This document shows, in pieces, positions 11,541 through 17,449 of a stretch of 64,000 nucleotides of DNA. The stretch spans positions 62,001-126,000 of the forward strand of contig NZ_CVRB01000003.1 of the NCBI RefSeq assembly GCF_001048695.1, read 5' to 3'. The notes under the pieces were generated by a model. The model was not told the DNA's origin, searched no databases, and saw only the letters and a list, made by a program, of their open reading frames with translations. Each line of letters opens with the position of its first letter. Position 1 is the stretch's first letter. The stretch comes from Neobacillus massiliamazoniensis. Lineage in GTDB: Bacteria; Bacillota; Bacilli; Bacillales; Cytobacillaceae. A program made the position numbers and the translations under genes.

Positions 11541-11680
11541 TGATAATACCTCCATAAAAATTAGGATTCTTCGAAAATCTTTGATTGATACCTATTTGTA
11601 TGAGCTCAAAAAATAGAATAGTATTACAGTTTGTTTACAAGAAACAAGTTGGTGCCTGACACCCAACACGCTAATGTGGG

Positions 11681-11716
11681 TATGACAATTTGTCAGACTA
11701 TGACTTTTTGTCATAG
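11681..11716 (+). promoter_or_regulatory. Paired dyads, candidate upstream activator sites for the sigma-54 activator
   Basis: TATGACAATTTGTCA (11681-11695) and CTATGACTTTTTGTCATAG (11698-11716) share the form TATGAC-N5-GTCA and lie 18 bp apart. They are roughly 130-150 bp upstream of the start predicted from the -24/-12 promoter, the usual place for NtrC-family enhancer sites. The activator gene is 16121-17449. That the activator binds these dyads is inference. Confidence 0.65.
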
Positions 11717-11811: not shown

Positions 11812-11829
11812 TTGGCATAAAATTTGCAT
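11812..11829 (+). promoter_or_regulatory. Sigma-54 (-24/-12) promoter of the tsdA-like gene
   Basis: TTGGCATAAAATTTGCAT contains GG at 11814-11815 and GC at 11826-11827 separated by exactly ten bases. This matches the TGGCAC-N5-TTGC consensus with one mismatch. It lies about 45 bases before the cytochrome gene's start codon, and no good sigma-A alternative is seen there. Confidence 0.82.
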
Positions 11830-11872: not shown

Positions 11873-12784
11873 ATGATGATGCTATCAAAAATGAAAAAAG
11901 GGTACTTACTAGCGCTTTTATCATTAGTCCTTATTCCAGCAGGCTGCTCCTCAGATCAGACCACTGCTAAGGCAAAGCCCCAATCAAAGGAGACAGCTTC
12001 TGTTAAACAGACTGCAATGAAAACCTATGAACCACCTAGTATGGACAAAGTTCCAAACGGTCCTCTAGGGGATTCCATAAAATTGGGTTTTAAAATTTTG
12101 AATGAGACCAAAACAGTTCTTCCAAACAATGTTGGGAACAATTTATCTTGTTCAAGCTGTCATGGGACAGCAGGTACCGATACGACTTCACCGTTAACAG
12201 GTGTCACCGCTGTATATCCTGCTTATAATCCACGTGCTGGAAAAGTGTTGACAATTGAGGATCGAATCAATGGATGCTTTAAAAGGAGTATGAATGGAAA
12301 ACCACTTGAGGCAAGTAGTGATGCAATGAGAGGGATGGTCGCTTACTTAAACTATATTTCTACAGATGTACCAGTTGGTACTAAAGAGCGGCCATGGGTG
12401 GTTAAAAATTCATTGCAAAATGTTCCGAAGGTAGATCTTGCAAATGGCGAGAAACTATATCAACAATCATGTTCCTCATGTCATGGCGCTGATGGGGCTG
12501 GTACAGGAGCCACTACAGGACCTGCACTTTGGGGCAGTAATTCCTTCAATATTGGTGCTGGTATGGGAAGAATCTCAACGGCAGCTGGATACATTCAAAG
12601 AAATATGCCGCTTACCGAAATGGGTGGTATTAAAAAAGGCGGCTTAACTGACCAGCAAGCTGCGGATCTTGCAGGATTTATTCTTTCAAAAGAACGACCT
12701 GATTTTGCCGAAAAAGCCAATGATTGGCCGCTTGGTGGCGCACCAGCAGATGTACCTTATGAATTAAAAAGTAACAAGCAATAA
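11873..12784 (+). CDS. tsdA: Dihaem cytochrome c lipoprotein, thiosulfate dehydrogenase (TsdA)-like
   Basis: 303-residue lipoprotein with two class I cytochrome c modules, anchored outside the membrane by the lipobox Cys25 (LIPAGC). Haem 1 is bound by CSSCH at 93-97. Cys135 in INGCFKRSMNGK is placed as the unusual Cys axial ligand of TsdA enzymes. Haem 2 is bound by CSSCH at 200-204 with a candidate Met ligand in RNMPL. TsdA enzymes interconvert thiosulfate and tetrathionate and pass electrons to the respiratory chain. AGGAGTG precedes three consecutive ATGs; the first is taken. A -24/-12 promoter and paired dyads lie upstream, and a sigma-54 activator operon lies downstream. The Cys ligand favours TsdA over a generic dihaem cytochrome. 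Confidence 0.82.
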   Translation: MMMLSKMKKGYLLALLSLVLIPAGCSSDQTTAKAKPQSKETASVKQTAMKTYEPPSMDKVPNGPLGDSIKLGFKILNETKTVLPNNVGNNLSCSSCHGTAGTDTTSPLTGVTAVYPAYNPRAGKVLTIEDRINGCFKRSMNGKPLEASSDAMRGMVAYLNYISTDVPVGTKERPWVVKNSLQNVPKVDLANGEKLYQQSCSSCHGADGAGTGATTGPALWGSNSFNIGAGMGRISTAAGYIQRNMPLTEMGGIKKGGLTDQQAADLAGFILSKERPDFAEKANDWPLGGAPADVPYELKSNKQ

Positions 12785-12863: not shown

Positions 12864-12896
12864 GAAAGCCCCTGAAACTTTTCAGAGGCTTTTTTC
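12864..12896 (+). terminator. Intrinsic terminator after the tsdA-like gene
   Basis: AAGCCCCTGAAA pairs with TTTCAGAGGCTT, followed by six Ts. It separates the cytochrome transcript from the sensor operon. Confidence 0.85.
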
Positions 12897-13036: not shown

Positions 13037-14041
13037 ATGAAAGCTAAATGGTTTTTAATGGTTTCATTCATCTTAATTACAGTCGTGATATTAAATTATT
13101 CATTTGATACTTCTAAAGAAACTCCTATACGAATCGGAGTTTTAACGATCGGTGATAGTCGCTATGAAAAGCTGGTTGGTTTACAAAACGGACTGAAGGA
13201 ATTAGGTTATCAACAAAATGAATTTCAATTTATTGTAAAAAACGCAAAAGAGAACCCGTCAAAACTGCAAAAACAGATTGATGAATTAATCCATAGTCAC
13301 CCCGAGATAATCGTAACTCTTGGCGGAATTGAAACCATTGAATTAAAGAAAGTGATGGATAAGAACCATATAAACATACCAGTCGTATTTGCAGGAGCTG
13401 CATCCCCAAAAGAAATGGGCATGATCAAAGATGAAAAAGCGCCTGGAGGGCAGTTTACTGGGATTAATAATTATCATACTAGTATTTCTGGAAAACGATT
13501 AGAAATACTTGTTGACTTAATCCCAAGTATCCAAAGAGTACATATTTTATATGATAATGAATCCGAGATTAGTAAACTTAGTTTGCAAAAAACGTTAGAA
13601 GCGGCAAATGAATTATCCGTATCTGTAAAGCCATGGAATGTCAGTGATGCAGATTTCCCCAAAAACTTAGAGAATAATCTCAAGAAGAACGATGCTTTAT
13701 TCCTATTACCGAGCTTTCGAATTGAATCAATGACAGACCAACTTGTGAATATAGAAAATAATTACAGGATTCCTACGATGGGAATCTATGAACATGAAGT
13801 GAAAAACGGATTTCTCCTCAGTTACGGAACAAGCTTTAAGGATCAAGGATACCAAGCAGCAAGGTATGTCAGTTTATTGATTAAAGGAAATTCCCCAGGA
13901 GAATTACCCGTGGAAATGCCTGATAACATTCGCTTCTTAGTTAATAAACAAGAACAGGATTTATTGGGAATTCATCTTAACCAAGATTTATTAAAAATTG
14001 CAGAATTTAGTGATGTTAATAAAAAGGGGAGCAATAAATGA
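13037..14041 (+). CDS. ABC_sub_bind-type extracellular binding protein of a sensory operon
   Basis: 334-residue protein with one N-terminal membrane anchor or uncleaved signal (WFLMVSFILITVVILNYSF) and a type-1 periplasmic-binding fold. IRIGVLTIGDSRYEKLVGLQ opens the fold; IIVTLGG, IPVVFAGAASPKE and VHILYDNESE are typical of the TrpX/ABC_sub_bind family. No transporter genes accompany it. Its stop overlaps the start of a membrane histidine kinase (ATGA), so it is probably a ligand-sensing component and not a transport protein. The ligand is unknown; thiosulfate or tetrathionate is a guess from the neighbouring cytochrome. Confidence 0.82.
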   Translation: MKAKWFLMVSFILITVVILNYSFDTSKETPIRIGVLTIGDSRYEKLVGLQNGLKELGYQQNEFQFIVKNAKENPSKLQKQIDELIHSHPEIIVTLGGIETIELKKVMDKNHINIPVVFAGAASPKEMGMIKDEKAPGGQFTGINNYHTSISGKRLEILVDLIPSIQRVHILYDNESEISKLSLQKTLEAANELSVSVKPWNVSDADFPKNLENNLKKNDALFLLPSFRIESMTDQLVNIENNYRIPTMGIYEHEVKNGFLLSYGTSFKDQGYQAARYVSLLIKGNSPGELPVEMPDNIRFLVNKQEQDLLGIHLNQDLLKIAEFSDVNKKGSNK

Positions 14042-16134
14042 TGAAATCACAGTCTAAATGGCTCGGCTCCCAGCCCATTCGGGATAAGGTGGTTGTGTTC
14101 GGGATTCTTATGTCATCCATTCCATTGCTGCTCTTAAGTTTCTATTACTTTTATCATACAAAAATGGATTTAGAGGAACGGATTAAGGAAAAACAAATAC
14201 TAGTTCTGAAAAATTTATCAACAGAAATTACAATGGATGTTAATCTTACTTTTCAGCATTTACAAAAACTAGCACTGGTATATGGATCAAACCAGACGGA
14301 TAGCGAATTTTATCAACTATTGCAGCAAAATGAGTCGATAGAGGAAATTGTTTTGACCAATGAAAACGGGATCGTGGTAAAAAGAATCTCTAGATACAAA
14401 CTTAATAAGCCTGAGAAAAATGAAAAATGGTATTCAAAAGAGATGTGGCTCAGTTTTCAAAATAATGAAAAAGCATATGGAAATGTTGAGTTAAATGAGT
14501 ATGGTCAGCCGGTTGTAAAACTTGCCGTTCCTTTTGTGGAAAATGGAAAAAGAAAAGGGGTGGGGGTCGTCCTACAACTGCAAAAGATGGTTGGAAAAAT
14601 ATCGTCGTTACGTCAGGACTCTTCAACCTATTTATATTTGATGGATAGCAGTGGAAAGGTAATTGCTCATCAGGATTTCAGCAAACTCTGGAAAAAAGAA
14701 AATCCTGATACCGCTACTTCAGTACTAGGAGTTAAAGAAAAATTCCCAGGATTAAATTGGACACTTGTGATGGAACAGCCGAAAATGGCCGCTTACAAAC
14801 CCATTAATTATATGTTCCAGGATGGATTGCTAGTTGTTGCTCTACTCACCTGTCTTGTCAGCTTAATTAGTATTTATGCCGGCTTATACTTTACCAAGCC
14901 AATTATACTTCTTGATAAAGCGATGAATAAAATGAAATCAGGGGAAAAATTACACCCACTCTCTGTTCAACAAAATGACGAAATTGGAAAATTAGTGGAT
15001 TCCTTTAATGAAATGAGTAGGGAAATTCATGATAAATCAAGGCGGATTGAACAGGAAAAAGAACAGCTAAATGTTGTGTTGGAAGGTATTGGTGCGGGTC
15101 TGGCCCTTGTGACAAAGGAATATAAAATCACTTGGATGAATTCAATACTAAAAAGCTTATATGAAAAGGATCAGTTCCACTTACCTTGCTATCAGCTTAT
15201 TGAGGGTAGCAAAGCCCCATGCAAAGATTGCATCATAACGAATAATCGTATCGAAGACAATGCAAATAAATTGTTTACCTTAGAAGATCGGTTTGGAGAT
15301 AAAAGGATTTTTCGACACCGTGTTTTTCCTTTGACACATGTAATGGATGGTGAAGGTGAATTCGTCCTTTTCATTGAGGACATAACAAAGGAAAAGAAAA
15401 TCGAAGAAAAAATTGTCCAGACGGATAAACTCGCTGCACTTGGGTTGATGGCATCTAGTTTTGCTCATGAAGTGAATAATCCGCTAACGACCATCAATGT
15501 TTACTCAGAAGATTTACTAGATCGAATGAATGGACATGACCCTTCTTTGGACGATGCTGAGATGTCTATCTACCTTAAAAAAATTAAGGATAATACGGAA
15601 CGGTGTAAACAAATAACAGCCAACCTATTAAATTTTTCTAGGAAGACAAATTGGACGATTTCATCCATTGACTTAGAGGATACGCTTCAAAATGCCATTA
15701 GTTTAGTGGAATATCCCCTAAGAAAAAAGAAGATTACGCTTCACGTACAGCTTGGAGATATCCCAGACTTTCATGGAGATCGTTTAAAGCTAATGCAAGT
15801 GCTTGTTAATTTACTCAATAACTCTATTGATTCCATTGAAGAGGATGGAACGATTAGTATTTTGGGAGAAATGAAAAATCGGGAGTTAAATCTAATAATC
15901 AGAGATTCAGGAGAAGGTATTAGGAAGGAAGACTTACCAAAAATCTTTGATCCATTTTATACTACGAAACCAATTGGGAAAGGTACCGGTCTTGGTTTGT
16001 CGGTTTGTTATGGAATTATTCAACAATTCGGCGGAACCATACAATTTTCAAGTGAATTAGGAAAAGGAACAACAGTAGAATTAAAGATTCCTATCCAAAC
16101 AAAGCAAGGGAGGGAACATCATGGGAACAAATAG
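14038..16134 (+). CDS. Membrane sensor histidine kinase (Cache-type sensor, HAMP, PAS, HisKA, HATPase)
   Basis: 698-residue kinase. Membrane segment 1 is near residues 20-40, and an extracellular sensor domain of about 215 residues has a Cache-like pattern. Membrane segment 2 is near 262-283, HAMP near 284-335 and a PAS-like domain near 338-450 with the cysteine group CYQLIEGSKAPCKDC. HisKA has the phospho-acceptor His477 in SSFAHEVNNPLTT. The ATPase domain has the N-box NLLNNSIDSIEE, DSGEGI, FDPFYTT and GTGLGLS. The NtrB-like HEVNNPL box fits a kinase serving an NtrC-type regulator. It overlaps the binding-protein gene by 4 bases and the regulator gene by 14, so the three proteins are made together. 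Confidence 0.92.
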   Translation: MMKSQSKWLGSQPIRDKVVVFGILMSSIPLLLLSFYYFYHTKMDLEERIKEKQILVLKNLSTEITMDVNLTFQHLQKLALVYGSNQTDSEFYQLLQQNESIEEIVLTNENGIVVKRISRYKLNKPEKNEKWYSKEMWLSFQNNEKAYGNVELNEYGQPVVKLAVPFVENGKRKGVGVVLQLQKMVGKISSLRQDSSTYLYLMDSSGKVIAHQDFSKLWKKENPDTATSVLGVKEKFPGLNWTLVMEQPKMAAYKPINYMFQDGLLVVALLTCLVSLISIYAGLYFTKPIILLDKAMNKMKSGEKLHPLSVQQNDEIGKLVDSFNEMSREIHDKSRRIEQEKEQLNVVLEGIGAGLALVTKEYKITWMNSILKSLYEKDQFHLPCYQLIEGSKAPCKDCIITNNRIEDNANKLFTLEDRFGDKRIFRHRVFPLTHVMDGEGEFVLFIEDITKEKKIEEKIVQTDKLAALGLMASSFAHEVNNPLTTINVYSEDLLDRMNGHDPSLDDAEMSIYLKKIKDNTERCKQITANLLNFSRKTNWTISSIDLEDTLQNAISLVEYPLRKKKITLHVQLGDIPDFHGDRLKLMQVLVNLLNNSIDSIEEDGTISILGEMKNRELNLIIRDSGEGIRKEDLPKIFDPFYTTKPIGKGTGLGLSVCYGIIQQFGGTIQFSSELGKGTTVELKIPIQTKQGREHHGNK

Positions 16135-17449
16135 GATAATAATTGTTGATGATGAGAAAGATTTACTAGAACTGCTTGTCAATCGCTTAAAACGAAAAGG
16201 ATACGAAGTAGATTTTGCTGAAAATGCTGAGGATGCCATACCGTTAGTAAAATGCCATTTTTATGATATAGCCATTTACGATATCCGCTTGCCGAAAATG
16301 GATGGTATTTCGTTGTTGAAGGAAACCAAAAAAATTCAGCCTGAGATTCAAGTGATTATGCTAACTGGACATGGAACAATTGAAACCGCAATTGAAGCAA
16401 TGAAGCTCGGAGCATTTGATTATTTAGCTAAGCCCTACAATCTTTCTGAACTTGAAATTGCGATCGCGAAGGCTATTGAGAATAAAAGGCTAAAAGAGAA
16501 AAATGAAAGTATGAAAACAATCATCCAGCAGCAAAATTCATTTCAGATTATCGGGGAAAATGATAAGTTTCGAGCACTATTAGACTTAACAGAACGAGTA
16601 TCAAACAGTGATGTTCCTGTATTAATTGAAGGAGAAAGCGGGACTGGCAAAGAGTTATTTGCCAAAGCCCTTCATTACTGGAGTTTTCGAGCAGAGGAGC
16701 CATTTGTAGCAATAAATTCTGGCGCGTTGCCAGAACAATTGCTTGAGAGTGAGCTGTTCGGACACGTAAAAGGGGCATTTACCGGAGCCAATCAGGATAA
16801 GAAAGGACTAGTAGAGGCGGCCAACGGCGGAACATTATTTTTGGATGAGCTTGGGGAAATGCCGTTTACCCTACAAGTAAAACTATTAAGATTTCTTGAA
16901 ACGGGTGAGTTCCGTAGAGTAGGCGATGTAAGAGAGAGAAAAGTAAAGGTAAGAACGGTTGCAGCAACAAATCGACAATTAGAAAAAGAAGTAGCAAATG
17001 GGAATTTTAGAGAAGACTTATATTATCGTCTCCATGTGCTGAAGCTGACCATTCCTCCATTAAGAGCCCGGATGGATGACTTGCCATTCCTCATTGATTT
17101 TTTTATTAAAGGTAGAAAAACTTTGTCATCCGAAGCAATTGCGGCATTACAATCGTACCATTTTCCAGGGAATGTTAGAGAGCTTCATCACTTATTAGAA
17201 CGGGGCATTTTATTAAGCAATGGAAATACGATCGAAGAGTCTGATTTATTGCTTTCAAATGTTGAAAAGTCCAGTCAAAAGAGCTTAATAAATATGTACT
17301 CTTCACTTGAACAACTTGAGAAAGATCATATTTATAAAGTACTATCCGAGATGGGATGGAATAAAACAAAAGCAGCAGAGGTTTTAGGGGTTAGTGTTAG
17401 GAATCTATATCGAAAAATAGACCAATATCAGTTAAAAGTACCAATTTAA
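16121..17449 (+). CDS. NtrC-family sigma-54-dependent response regulator
   Basis: 442-residue activator. The receiver domain (1-120) has acidic pair D10/D11, phospho-acceptor Asp54 in YDIRLPKMDG and Lys in YLAKPY. The AAA+ domain (about 140-375) has Walker A GESGTGKE, the sigma-54-contact loop GAFTGA at 218-223 and Walker B TLFLDELGEM. The C-terminal Fis-type helix-turn-helix is WNKTKAAEVLGVSVRNLYRKI. Every residue class needed for sigma-54 activation is present. It is translationally coupled to the kinase. The -24/-12 promoter 4.3 kb upstream before the tsdA-like gene is the obvious local target. A bidirectional terminator follows. Confidence 0.95.
   Translation: MGTNRIIIVDDEKDLLELLVNRLKRKGYEVDFAENAEDAIPLVKCHFYDIAIYDIRLPKMDGISLLKETKKIQPEIQVIMLTGHGTIETAIEAMKLGAFDYLAKPYNLSELEIAIAKAIENKRLKEKNESMKTIIQQQNSFQIIGENDKFRALLDLTERVSNSDVPVLIEGESGTGKELFAKALHYWSFRAEEPFVAINSGALPEQLLESELFGHVKGAFTGANQDKKGLVEAANGGTLFLDELGEMPFTLQVKLLRFLETGEFRRVGDVRERKVKVRTVAATNRQLEKEVANGNFREDLYYRLHVLKLTIPPLRARMDDLPFLIDFFIKGRKTLSSEAIAALQSYHFPGNVRELHHLLERGILLSNGNTIEESDLLLSNVEKSSQKSLINMYSSLEQLEKDHIYKVLSEMGWNKTKAAEVLGVSVRNLYRKIDQYQLKVPI

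Follow-up and report, generated by a model that had tools for sequence, protein, structure and literature searches.

The window analysed here, a 64,000-nucleotide stretch of the Neobacillus massiliamazoniensis genome (5.6 Mb in 10 contigs), carried three overlapping genes for a binding protein, a histidine kinase and a response regulator (hereafter the trio). They lay next to tsdA, and the features of the locus were as follows.

11683..11695, no strand assigned: proposed upstream activator site 1, TGACAATTTGTCA, a TGAC-N5-GTCA palindrome
11701..11713, no strand assigned: proposed upstream activator site 2, TGACTTTTTGTCA, a TGAC-N5-GTCA palindrome 18 bp from site 1
11812..11828, plus strand: sigma-54 promoter of tsdA, TTGGCATAAAATTTGCA, found by pattern scan
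11873..12784, plus strand: tsdA, dihaem thiosulfate dehydrogenase / tetrathionate reductase by domain and structure match, with a lipobox-like N-terminus by eye
12867..12895, plus strand: probable intrinsic terminator between tsdA and the trio, by eye (11-bp stem with one mismatch, then T6)
13037..14041, plus strand: sensor binding protein (Pfam match to PF04392), proposed ligand receptor with an N-terminal hydrophobic anchor
14038..16134, plus strand: sensor histidine kinase with a dCache-like extracellular region, HAMP, a C-x10-C-x2-C region and HisKA/HATPase
16121..17449, plus strand: NtrC-type sigma-54-dependent response regulator (Asp54, GAFTGA, Fis-type helix-turn-helix)

A sequence-only reading of the window had described the three overlapping genes, a membrane-anchored binding protein without permease or ATPase neighbours, a kinase with HEVNNPL, a regulator with Asp54 and GAFTGA, and a sigma-54 promoter before tsdA, and each of these was recovered. 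Binding protein and kinase genes overlapped by 4 bases, kinase and regulator genes by 14. The only Pfam family matched by the binding protein at E 0.001 or better was ABC_sub_bind (PF04392, E 3.6e-46). The kinase contained HAMP, HisKA and HATPase_c, with HEVNNPL in its sequence, and its dCache-like region scored 43.5 bits, just missing the cut-off of 45. The regulator combined Response_reg (Asp54 by count), Sigma54_activat with GAFTGA, and HTH_8, which is the NtrC-type layout of receiver, AAA+ domain with GAFTGA and Fis-type helix-turn-helix. Inspection by eye of the open reading frames of 6-26 kb in the window showed no ATP-binding cassette (ABC) permease or ATPase, and the hydrophobic N-terminus of the binding protein had no lipobox cysteine; a transport role was therefore not supported and was set aside.

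The window's binding protein was used to search a family sample of 151 genomes. At E 1e-20, 75 of the 151 genomes gave matches. Orthologues were found in 32 (4e-107 or better; 49-56% identity, excluding the window's own), and the remaining matches were paralogues of 20-26% identity at 1e-27 or weaker. The trio was also carried by the named relatives Neobacillus mesonae, N. rhizophilus and Cytobacillus praedii. The window, 31 other orthologue regions and the three named loci gave 34 distinct loci (our handles are G for genomes and L for loci), as L072 was judged to be the same place as L055 (Cytobacillus praedii); it was counted once among distinct loci and remained a row in the sets of 35 and 38 given below. 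The kinase adjoined the binding protein in 34 of the 34 distinct loci (a few with broken frames), and the regulator was adjacent in 33. In 31 of the 34, ttr genes were found 3' of the trio (in G123, behind binding protein and kinase only), and the loci without them were the window, N. mesonae and N. rhizophilus. These ttr genes encoded a ferredoxin-type subunit, an NrfD-type membrane subunit and a molybdopterin enzyme with a twin-arginine (TAT) signal, with a TatA gene in front in several loci. The best NCBIfam family of the G084 catalytic subunit was TtrA at 483 bits, followed by PhsA at 239. In the window's own genome ttrBCA lay on a separate contig (C6), preceded by tatA and followed by a gene for a TorD-like chaperone. 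In the draft assembly G133 (L065) kinase and ttr were frame-broken, and its kinase was omitted from the 34 kinases read. In G023 (L053) the binding-protein frame contained an internal TAA, with kinase, regulator and ttr open, indicating a broken sensor or an assembly error.

The promoters of these operons were consistent with control by a sigma-54 activator. Of the 31 linked loci, 29 had a sigma-54 site with at most 2 mismatches before ttr; L046 and L049 had weaker sites (more than 2 mismatches), and both had palindromes. The palindrome TGMCN5GKCA was present within 300 bp upstream of the sigma-54 site in 27 of the 29 loci, and it occurred 48 times in the 8.7 kb upstream of the 29 sites versus 24 times in 475 kb elsewhere in the same loci. 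The unlinked ttr operon of the window's genome was likewise preceded by a sigma-54 consensus site and two palindromes. Genome-wide, the sigma-54 pattern gave 19 sites there versus 3 for a reversed-pattern control. The strict form TGACWWWWWGTCA had four copies in the 5.6 Mb, all in the tsdA and ttr promoters; since its reversed-pattern control gave 6 in the same genome, the placement was telling and not the number. Judged from gene order and promoter sites, the usual target of the trio is ttrBCA, not tsdA.

TsdA and Ttr are unrelated enzymes: the former interconverts thiosulfate and tetrathionate, and the latter reduces tetrathionate. The tsdA product of the window matched the SoxA-TsdA domain (2e-20), and its best solved match was Allochromatium vinosum TsdA (4wqc, E 5e-51). 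The alignment placed the Cys ligand of haem 1 (CF-RS-NG) in register and set Asn-Met opposite the A. vinosum Lys-Met at haem 2, so that the hallmark of the enzyme (dihaem, Cys on haem 1, Met on haem 2) was found. C. jejuni TsdA likewise has Asn-Met at haem 2, and in A. vinosum the K208N exchange leaves the residual tetrathionate reductase activity at the wild-type level (PMC5146829, PMC6879331). The Asn at haem 2 thus does not tell the direction of TsdA, and any direction assumed for it here is putative.

Dissecting the tsdA genes by promoter and by kinship indicated that only close orthologues are likely to belong to the circuit. The pair of palindromes with the 18-bp spacing was also present before tsdA of G123, L070, L071 and L063 (the last, in G120, with each site one mismatch off). 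In G120, whose sigma-54 site was one mismatch off as well, and in G123, tsdA was 78-81% identical to that of the window. All five close orthologues (window, G120, G123, L070 and L071) therefore had a sigma-54 site and palindromes, one set being imperfect. The family sample held 52 tsdA places (E 1e-30 or better), and both site types occurred at 3 of them (window, G120, G123) and at 0 of the 49 others. Forty-eight of these others, 30 in trio genomes and 18 elsewhere, had neither site in about 450 bp upstream. In G084, tsdA lay about 6 kb past the end of the trio, behind ttr and beside ttrA, with a one-mismatch sigma-54-like site located in the gene before it; no palindrome was close by. tsdA as a conserved partner of the trio was thus rejected, as 49 of the 52 places lacked the two sites together. 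It adjoined the trio in only four loci (window, G120/L063, L070 and L071). A natural rearrangement in G123 placed binding protein, kinase and ttr on one contig and tsdA with the regulator (83%) on another, and tsdA there retained its sigma-54 site and palindromes despite the split. These distributions suggest that tsdA is a derived member of the circuit in Neobacillus-type genomes and that only close relatives recruited it. The sequence-only reading had proposed a circuit from an outside ligand to a respiratory enzyme, analogous to TtrRS but of another build. The conserved sites bear this out, although the main target, ttrBCA, had been missed, as had the two palindromes upstream of tsdA and the unlinked ttrBCA operon of the same genome. 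Its expectation that tsdA would co-occur with the trio across relatives held in part: tsdA of any kind was enriched (27 of 32 orthologue genomes versus 15 of 119 others), but physical linkage was not generally conserved. Both promoter sites were found only before close tsdA orthologues.

Co-inheritance pointed to ttr. Orthologues of ttrA (at least 76% identity to the G084 enzyme) were found in 33 of the 151 family genomes, namely in 32 of the 32 with the binding protein versus 1 of the 119 others (Fisher test, 5.6e-32, uncorrected for kinship). The single ttrA genome without a binding-protein match, G136, was 66% complete. In an order sample of 249 genomes, some common to the family sample, ttrA was present in 11 of 11 genomes with the binding protein, and 4 of 238 others had a match. 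Three genomes of other families of the order (G298, G182 and G251) had the trio followed by tatA-ttrBCA with a sigma-54 site, and a palindrome in two of the three. Of the four genomes with a ttr match and no binding protein, G304 had a 39% enzyme only. In the other three (G167, G211 and G347) ttr was preceded by a different two-component pair, and the region before it had no sigma-54 site and no palindrome. For both G167 and G347, family search showed the pair to be an OmpR-type regulator with a HAMP kinase; the G211 pair showed receiver and kinase similarity only. The ttr operon of G347 was split over two contigs, and the neighbours of ttrA-torD were tsdA, two rhodanese genes and a sulfite-oxidase-type gene.

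The arrangement extended beyond the window's class. In a phylum sample of 398 genomes, the binding protein had matches in 18 (E 1e-45 or better), and 16 of these genomes lay outside the class. Nineteen distant loci were fetched (31-41% identity), and in 10 of these ttrB-ttrC-ttrA followed downstream, two with an extra gene before ttrB (ferredoxin-type in the one checked). An exact palindrome was present in 9 of the 10, and a sigma-54 site with no more than 1 mismatch in 8. Trio, palindrome and ttrBCA were found together with distant homologues of 35-40% identity. Among the remaining loci, L184 and L193 ended at a contig end, L193 inside the regulator and L184 with palindrome and sigma-54 site both present. 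L185 had neither Ttr-like genes nor a palindrome, and the six loci L186-L191, with other TtrA-, TtrB- or TtrC-like genes, lacked an exact palindrome. The palindrome, found in 9 of the 10 distant ttrBCA loci and not in exact form in L185-L191, thus goes with the Ttr-type target.

Several observations on enzyme genes were made in passing. In L189, L190 and L191 the TtrA-like frame after the trio was split by an in-frame TGA at GHGYT*GGSK (or GHGSS*GGSA), near what we take to be the position of the molybdenum ligand; this suggests selenocysteine versions of TtrA-like enzymes under the same type of trio. Tandem pairs of TtrB-C-A-like clusters without palindromes were seen at L124 (G096:C114) and L159 (G304:C13), perhaps for a different substrate; the better enzyme of each was 41% (G096) and 39% (G304) identical to trio-linked TtrA. 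A further tsdA-like stretch lay near ttrA-torD in G347 (L158), where the sulfite-oxidase-type gene encodes a molybdoenzyme, and a gene fragment upstream of tsdA in G123 (L074) resembled, by eye, a TauE/SafE-type sulfite exporter.

We further compared the binding protein with its paralogues. AlphaFold modelled it in the TrpX fold (predicted local distance difference test, pLDDT, 82; four sequences), and it scored 119.5 bits against NCBIfam TrpX, whose cut-off is 390. A lipobox was found in 0 of 35 trio binding proteins versus 12 of 12 contrast paralogues, and none of the 35 had a cysteine in its first 45 residues, although the N-terminus had a hydrophobic stretch in these proteins; some of the distant homologues had lipobox-like cysteines. 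An ABC ATPase lay beside 3 of the 12 paralogues within the 6 kb fetched, so that a transport role was shown for those 3 at most. The alignment comprised 38 binding proteins, L053 being left out for its internal stop, and 43 residues were fixed. The paralogue loop V-[EA]-HPSLD was replaced by G-x-x-R-x-x-K in the trio proteins. Gly39, Arg42, Lys45, Asn145 and Arg154 were present in 38 of 38, where the paralogues had Val, Leu, Ala/Thr, Asp and Thr/Met, respectively, and Glu/Asp at position 251 of the paralogues became Tyr (Phe in one). By eye, position 42 was often Arg or Lys in the distant homologues as well. These changes, in or near the expected cleft, suggest an anion ligand. Of the 34 kinases read, 33 carried C-x10-C-x2-C between HAMP and HisKA, within a PAS-like region that had no Pfam match, and it is possible that the motif serves as a redox or metal input. 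The N. mesonae kinase (L070) had an in-frame loss of the cysteine stretch (about residues 344-447), with the binding protein kept. Matches of the kinase ectodomain to the PDB were weak, the best being 0.013 (a chloroplast protein) and Cache chemoreceptors starting from 0.05.

Building on the gene order, domains, promoter and activator sites, and their conservation and co-inheritance as documented above, we consider it likely that the trio is a three-part extracellular sensor of a sulfur oxyanion, most likely tetrathionate or thiosulfate, that drives ttrBCA and tsdA. The anchored binding protein would capture tetrathionate (S4O6 2-) or thiosulfate outside the cell and dock on the kinase's Cache-type ectodomain. 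Phosphorylated by the kinase at Asp54, the NtrC-type regulator would bind paired TGAC-N5-GTCA sites and activate sigma-54 promoters. The predicted regulon comprises tatA-ttrBCA-torD on the other contig and tsdA in the window. That two unrelated enzymes with tetrathionate and thiosulfate in common would fall under one sensor argues for these anions as the signal, as does the finding that some genomes have tsdA, and some have ttr, with the promoter link of the other missing. Vibrio TtrRS likewise has both enzymes under one sensor. The pair is our best guess for the ligand, and a strong one. Comparative genomics supports the circuit well. With somewhat less confidence, we favour a Bacillota-wide class of tetrathionate/thiosulfate sensors. 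In it, an anion-binding, TrpX-like branch of ABC_sub_bind would signal through a kinase of the Cache type to a sigma-54 activator, which would act at a single palindrome that the window's family shares with families of other classes. The class would have arisen independently of TtrSR and yet drive the same two enzymes, Ttr and (in Neobacillus) TsdA.

Several results weigh against this reading. Since the sampled genomes were often close relatives, the Fisher values overstate independence. The pairing of trio and ttr was not absolute, because N. mesonae and N. rhizophilus kept the trio and tsdA and gave no ttrA match, in a search that had no positive control of its own and whose query matched the window's genome at 78%. 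The palindrome was absent upstream of the ttr sigma-54 site in L044 and L058 of the 29 loci, and near the sigma-54 site of G251. The strict palindrome was specific only in the window's genome and less so in six others, where its hits fell in known promoters in 0 of 3 cases (G120, whose own promoter sites deviate from the W5 form), 1 of 3 (G123), 2 of 2 (G084), 1 of 5 (G125), 1 of 5 (G131) and 1 of 2 (G088). The G084 enzyme, at 483 bits, stayed far below the NCBIfam TtrA equivalog cut-off of 1750, and the closest solved structures of the binding protein were 3lft (L-Trp-bound), 3lkv and CD0873 (ligand-bound). Lastly, one lineage holds TtrA, SrdA of the characterised selenate reductase SrdBCA, and an archaeal arsenate reductase (PMC7331816).

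The last point leads to the alternative that the circuit is the same and the ligand is another oxyanion, selenate or arsenate, with the Ttr-like enzyme a selenate reductase of the SrdBCA type and tsdA a side target. The B-C-A gene order is common to srdBCA (named in PMC4319585), and AioX-type sensors bind arsenic oxyanions (PMC5908839). This is nevertheless unlikely: tsdA has the promoter sites in five of five close orthologues, N. mesonae and N. rhizophilus yielded tsdA and no ttrA match, and the neighbours of ttrA in G347 are tsdA, rhodanese and sulfite-oxidase-type genes. We give still less credence to the binding protein being a bystander, with the signal sensed by the kinase's own Cache-like or cysteine-bearing region. 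The kinase has both regions, the cysteines recurring in nearly all kinases read, and the interrupted binding protein of G023 beside open kinase, regulator and ttr could fit; yet the binding protein adjoins the kinase in 35 of 35 loci, its 43 fixed residues persist across 38 sequences, and N. mesonae keeps it with a kinase devoid of the cysteine stretch. Least probable, by a little, is that the binding protein senses an amino acid (tryptophan- or tyrosine-like) and the regulon answers a nutritional cue, as the TrpX-type structures and the TrpX match would have it, since its site is more positive than in the 12 lipoprotein paralogues, and by inference less suited to an ammonium group, and its conserved neighbours are respiratory and not of amino-acid metabolism.

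Around the trio, the probable terminator after tsdA suggests that the trio has its own promoter; a simple terminator scan did not have 12867..12895 in its plus-strand list. Downstream of the trio, family search identified a DUF421 gene, and an amino-acid permease was recognised by eye on the opposite strand. Near the tsdA promoter, a GC-rich palindrome, GGTGYCWGRCACC, was set aside as a single copy in the window unrelated to the activator site. A perfect GC-rich palindrome, GGTGCCTGACACC, was noted at 11651-11663 of the window; a similar repeat precedes the unlinked ttr operon, and it is perhaps a dispersed repeat.

If the sulfur-oxyanion reading is true, Gram-positive bacteria possess a sensor dedicated to tetrathionate/thiosulfate that is not built like TtrSR. 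The regulon would then be reached by three routes, the other two being TtrSR and the OmpR-type pair found here upstream of ttr. The reading would also give a ligand class to a branch of binding proteins whose nearest named relatives are amino-acid transport proteins. The reading predicts which of several tsdA paralogues belong to the regulon, and it invites one to ask for what function SrdA-type "selenate reductases" were selected. Bacillus subtilis has SigL, and the trio would offer a sensor part that could be tried in that host. Literature searches yielded no title or abstract that we recognised as describing the module, most subscription papers lying outside their reach, and the main texts of two sigma-54 regulon papers from 2019 (PMC6615313) and 2025 (PMC12316311) contained no tetrathionate, thiosulfate, arsenate or molybdopterin.

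The trio was compared with known systems. TorS is a hybrid kinase and TorR an OmpR-type regulator, and TtrR is not known to be a sigma-54 activator. TorT-TorS-TorR resembles the trio in that a binding protein feeds a kinase for molybdoenzyme respiration (TorT is named in PMC5908839), whereas TorT is of another family than PF04392. RsrSR and TspSR of Acidithiobacillus caldus control tetrathionate/thiosulfate pathways through two components, TspSR being described as sigma-54 dependent, whereas RsrSR is EnvZ/OmpR-like and the available description of both includes no binding protein (PMC5093147). The srdBCA genes of Bacillus selenatarsenatis, compared by description only, share enzyme lineage (PMC7331816) and subunit order with ttrBCA. 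Hallmarks of TrpX (a score above 390 bits, a lipoprotein, a place beside permease and ATPase) were not found for the window's binding protein. The closest likenesses were to two systems. TtrSR of Salmonella, Shewanella and Vibrio controls ttrBCA in response to tetrathionate (PMC11293645, PMC5408782), and in V. parahaemolyticus, where the sensor has a PhnD-like domain, it drives ttrBCA and tsdBA (PMC11293645). TtrS has this sensor domain fused, whereas the trio has a separate binding protein, a Cache-type kinase and a sigma-54 activator; its kinase scored 102 bits against a TtrS equivalog cut-off of 750 and had a dCache-like region and no Phosphonate-bd. In AioXSR, ArxXSR and ArrXSR, a separate binding protein, a kinase and a response regulator stand beside a molybdoenzyme, and in AioXSR the binding protein feeds kinase and regulator for an oxyanion, with AioR binding ahead of an RpoN promoter (PMC5908839). 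What the sequence-only reading had singled out as unusual, a binding protein in a sigma-54 circuit, accordingly has a precedent there, from another binding-protein family. The trio likewise forms one unit of binding protein, kinase and regulator, but AioX is PhnD-related (Phosphonate-bd) whereas the trio protein matched PF04392 only, and phylum and targets (here Ttr and TsdA) differ. Because one defining feature each of AioXSR and TtrSR was tested and found lacking, the trio is placed outside both; on its predicted parts, it belongs to neither and works like both.

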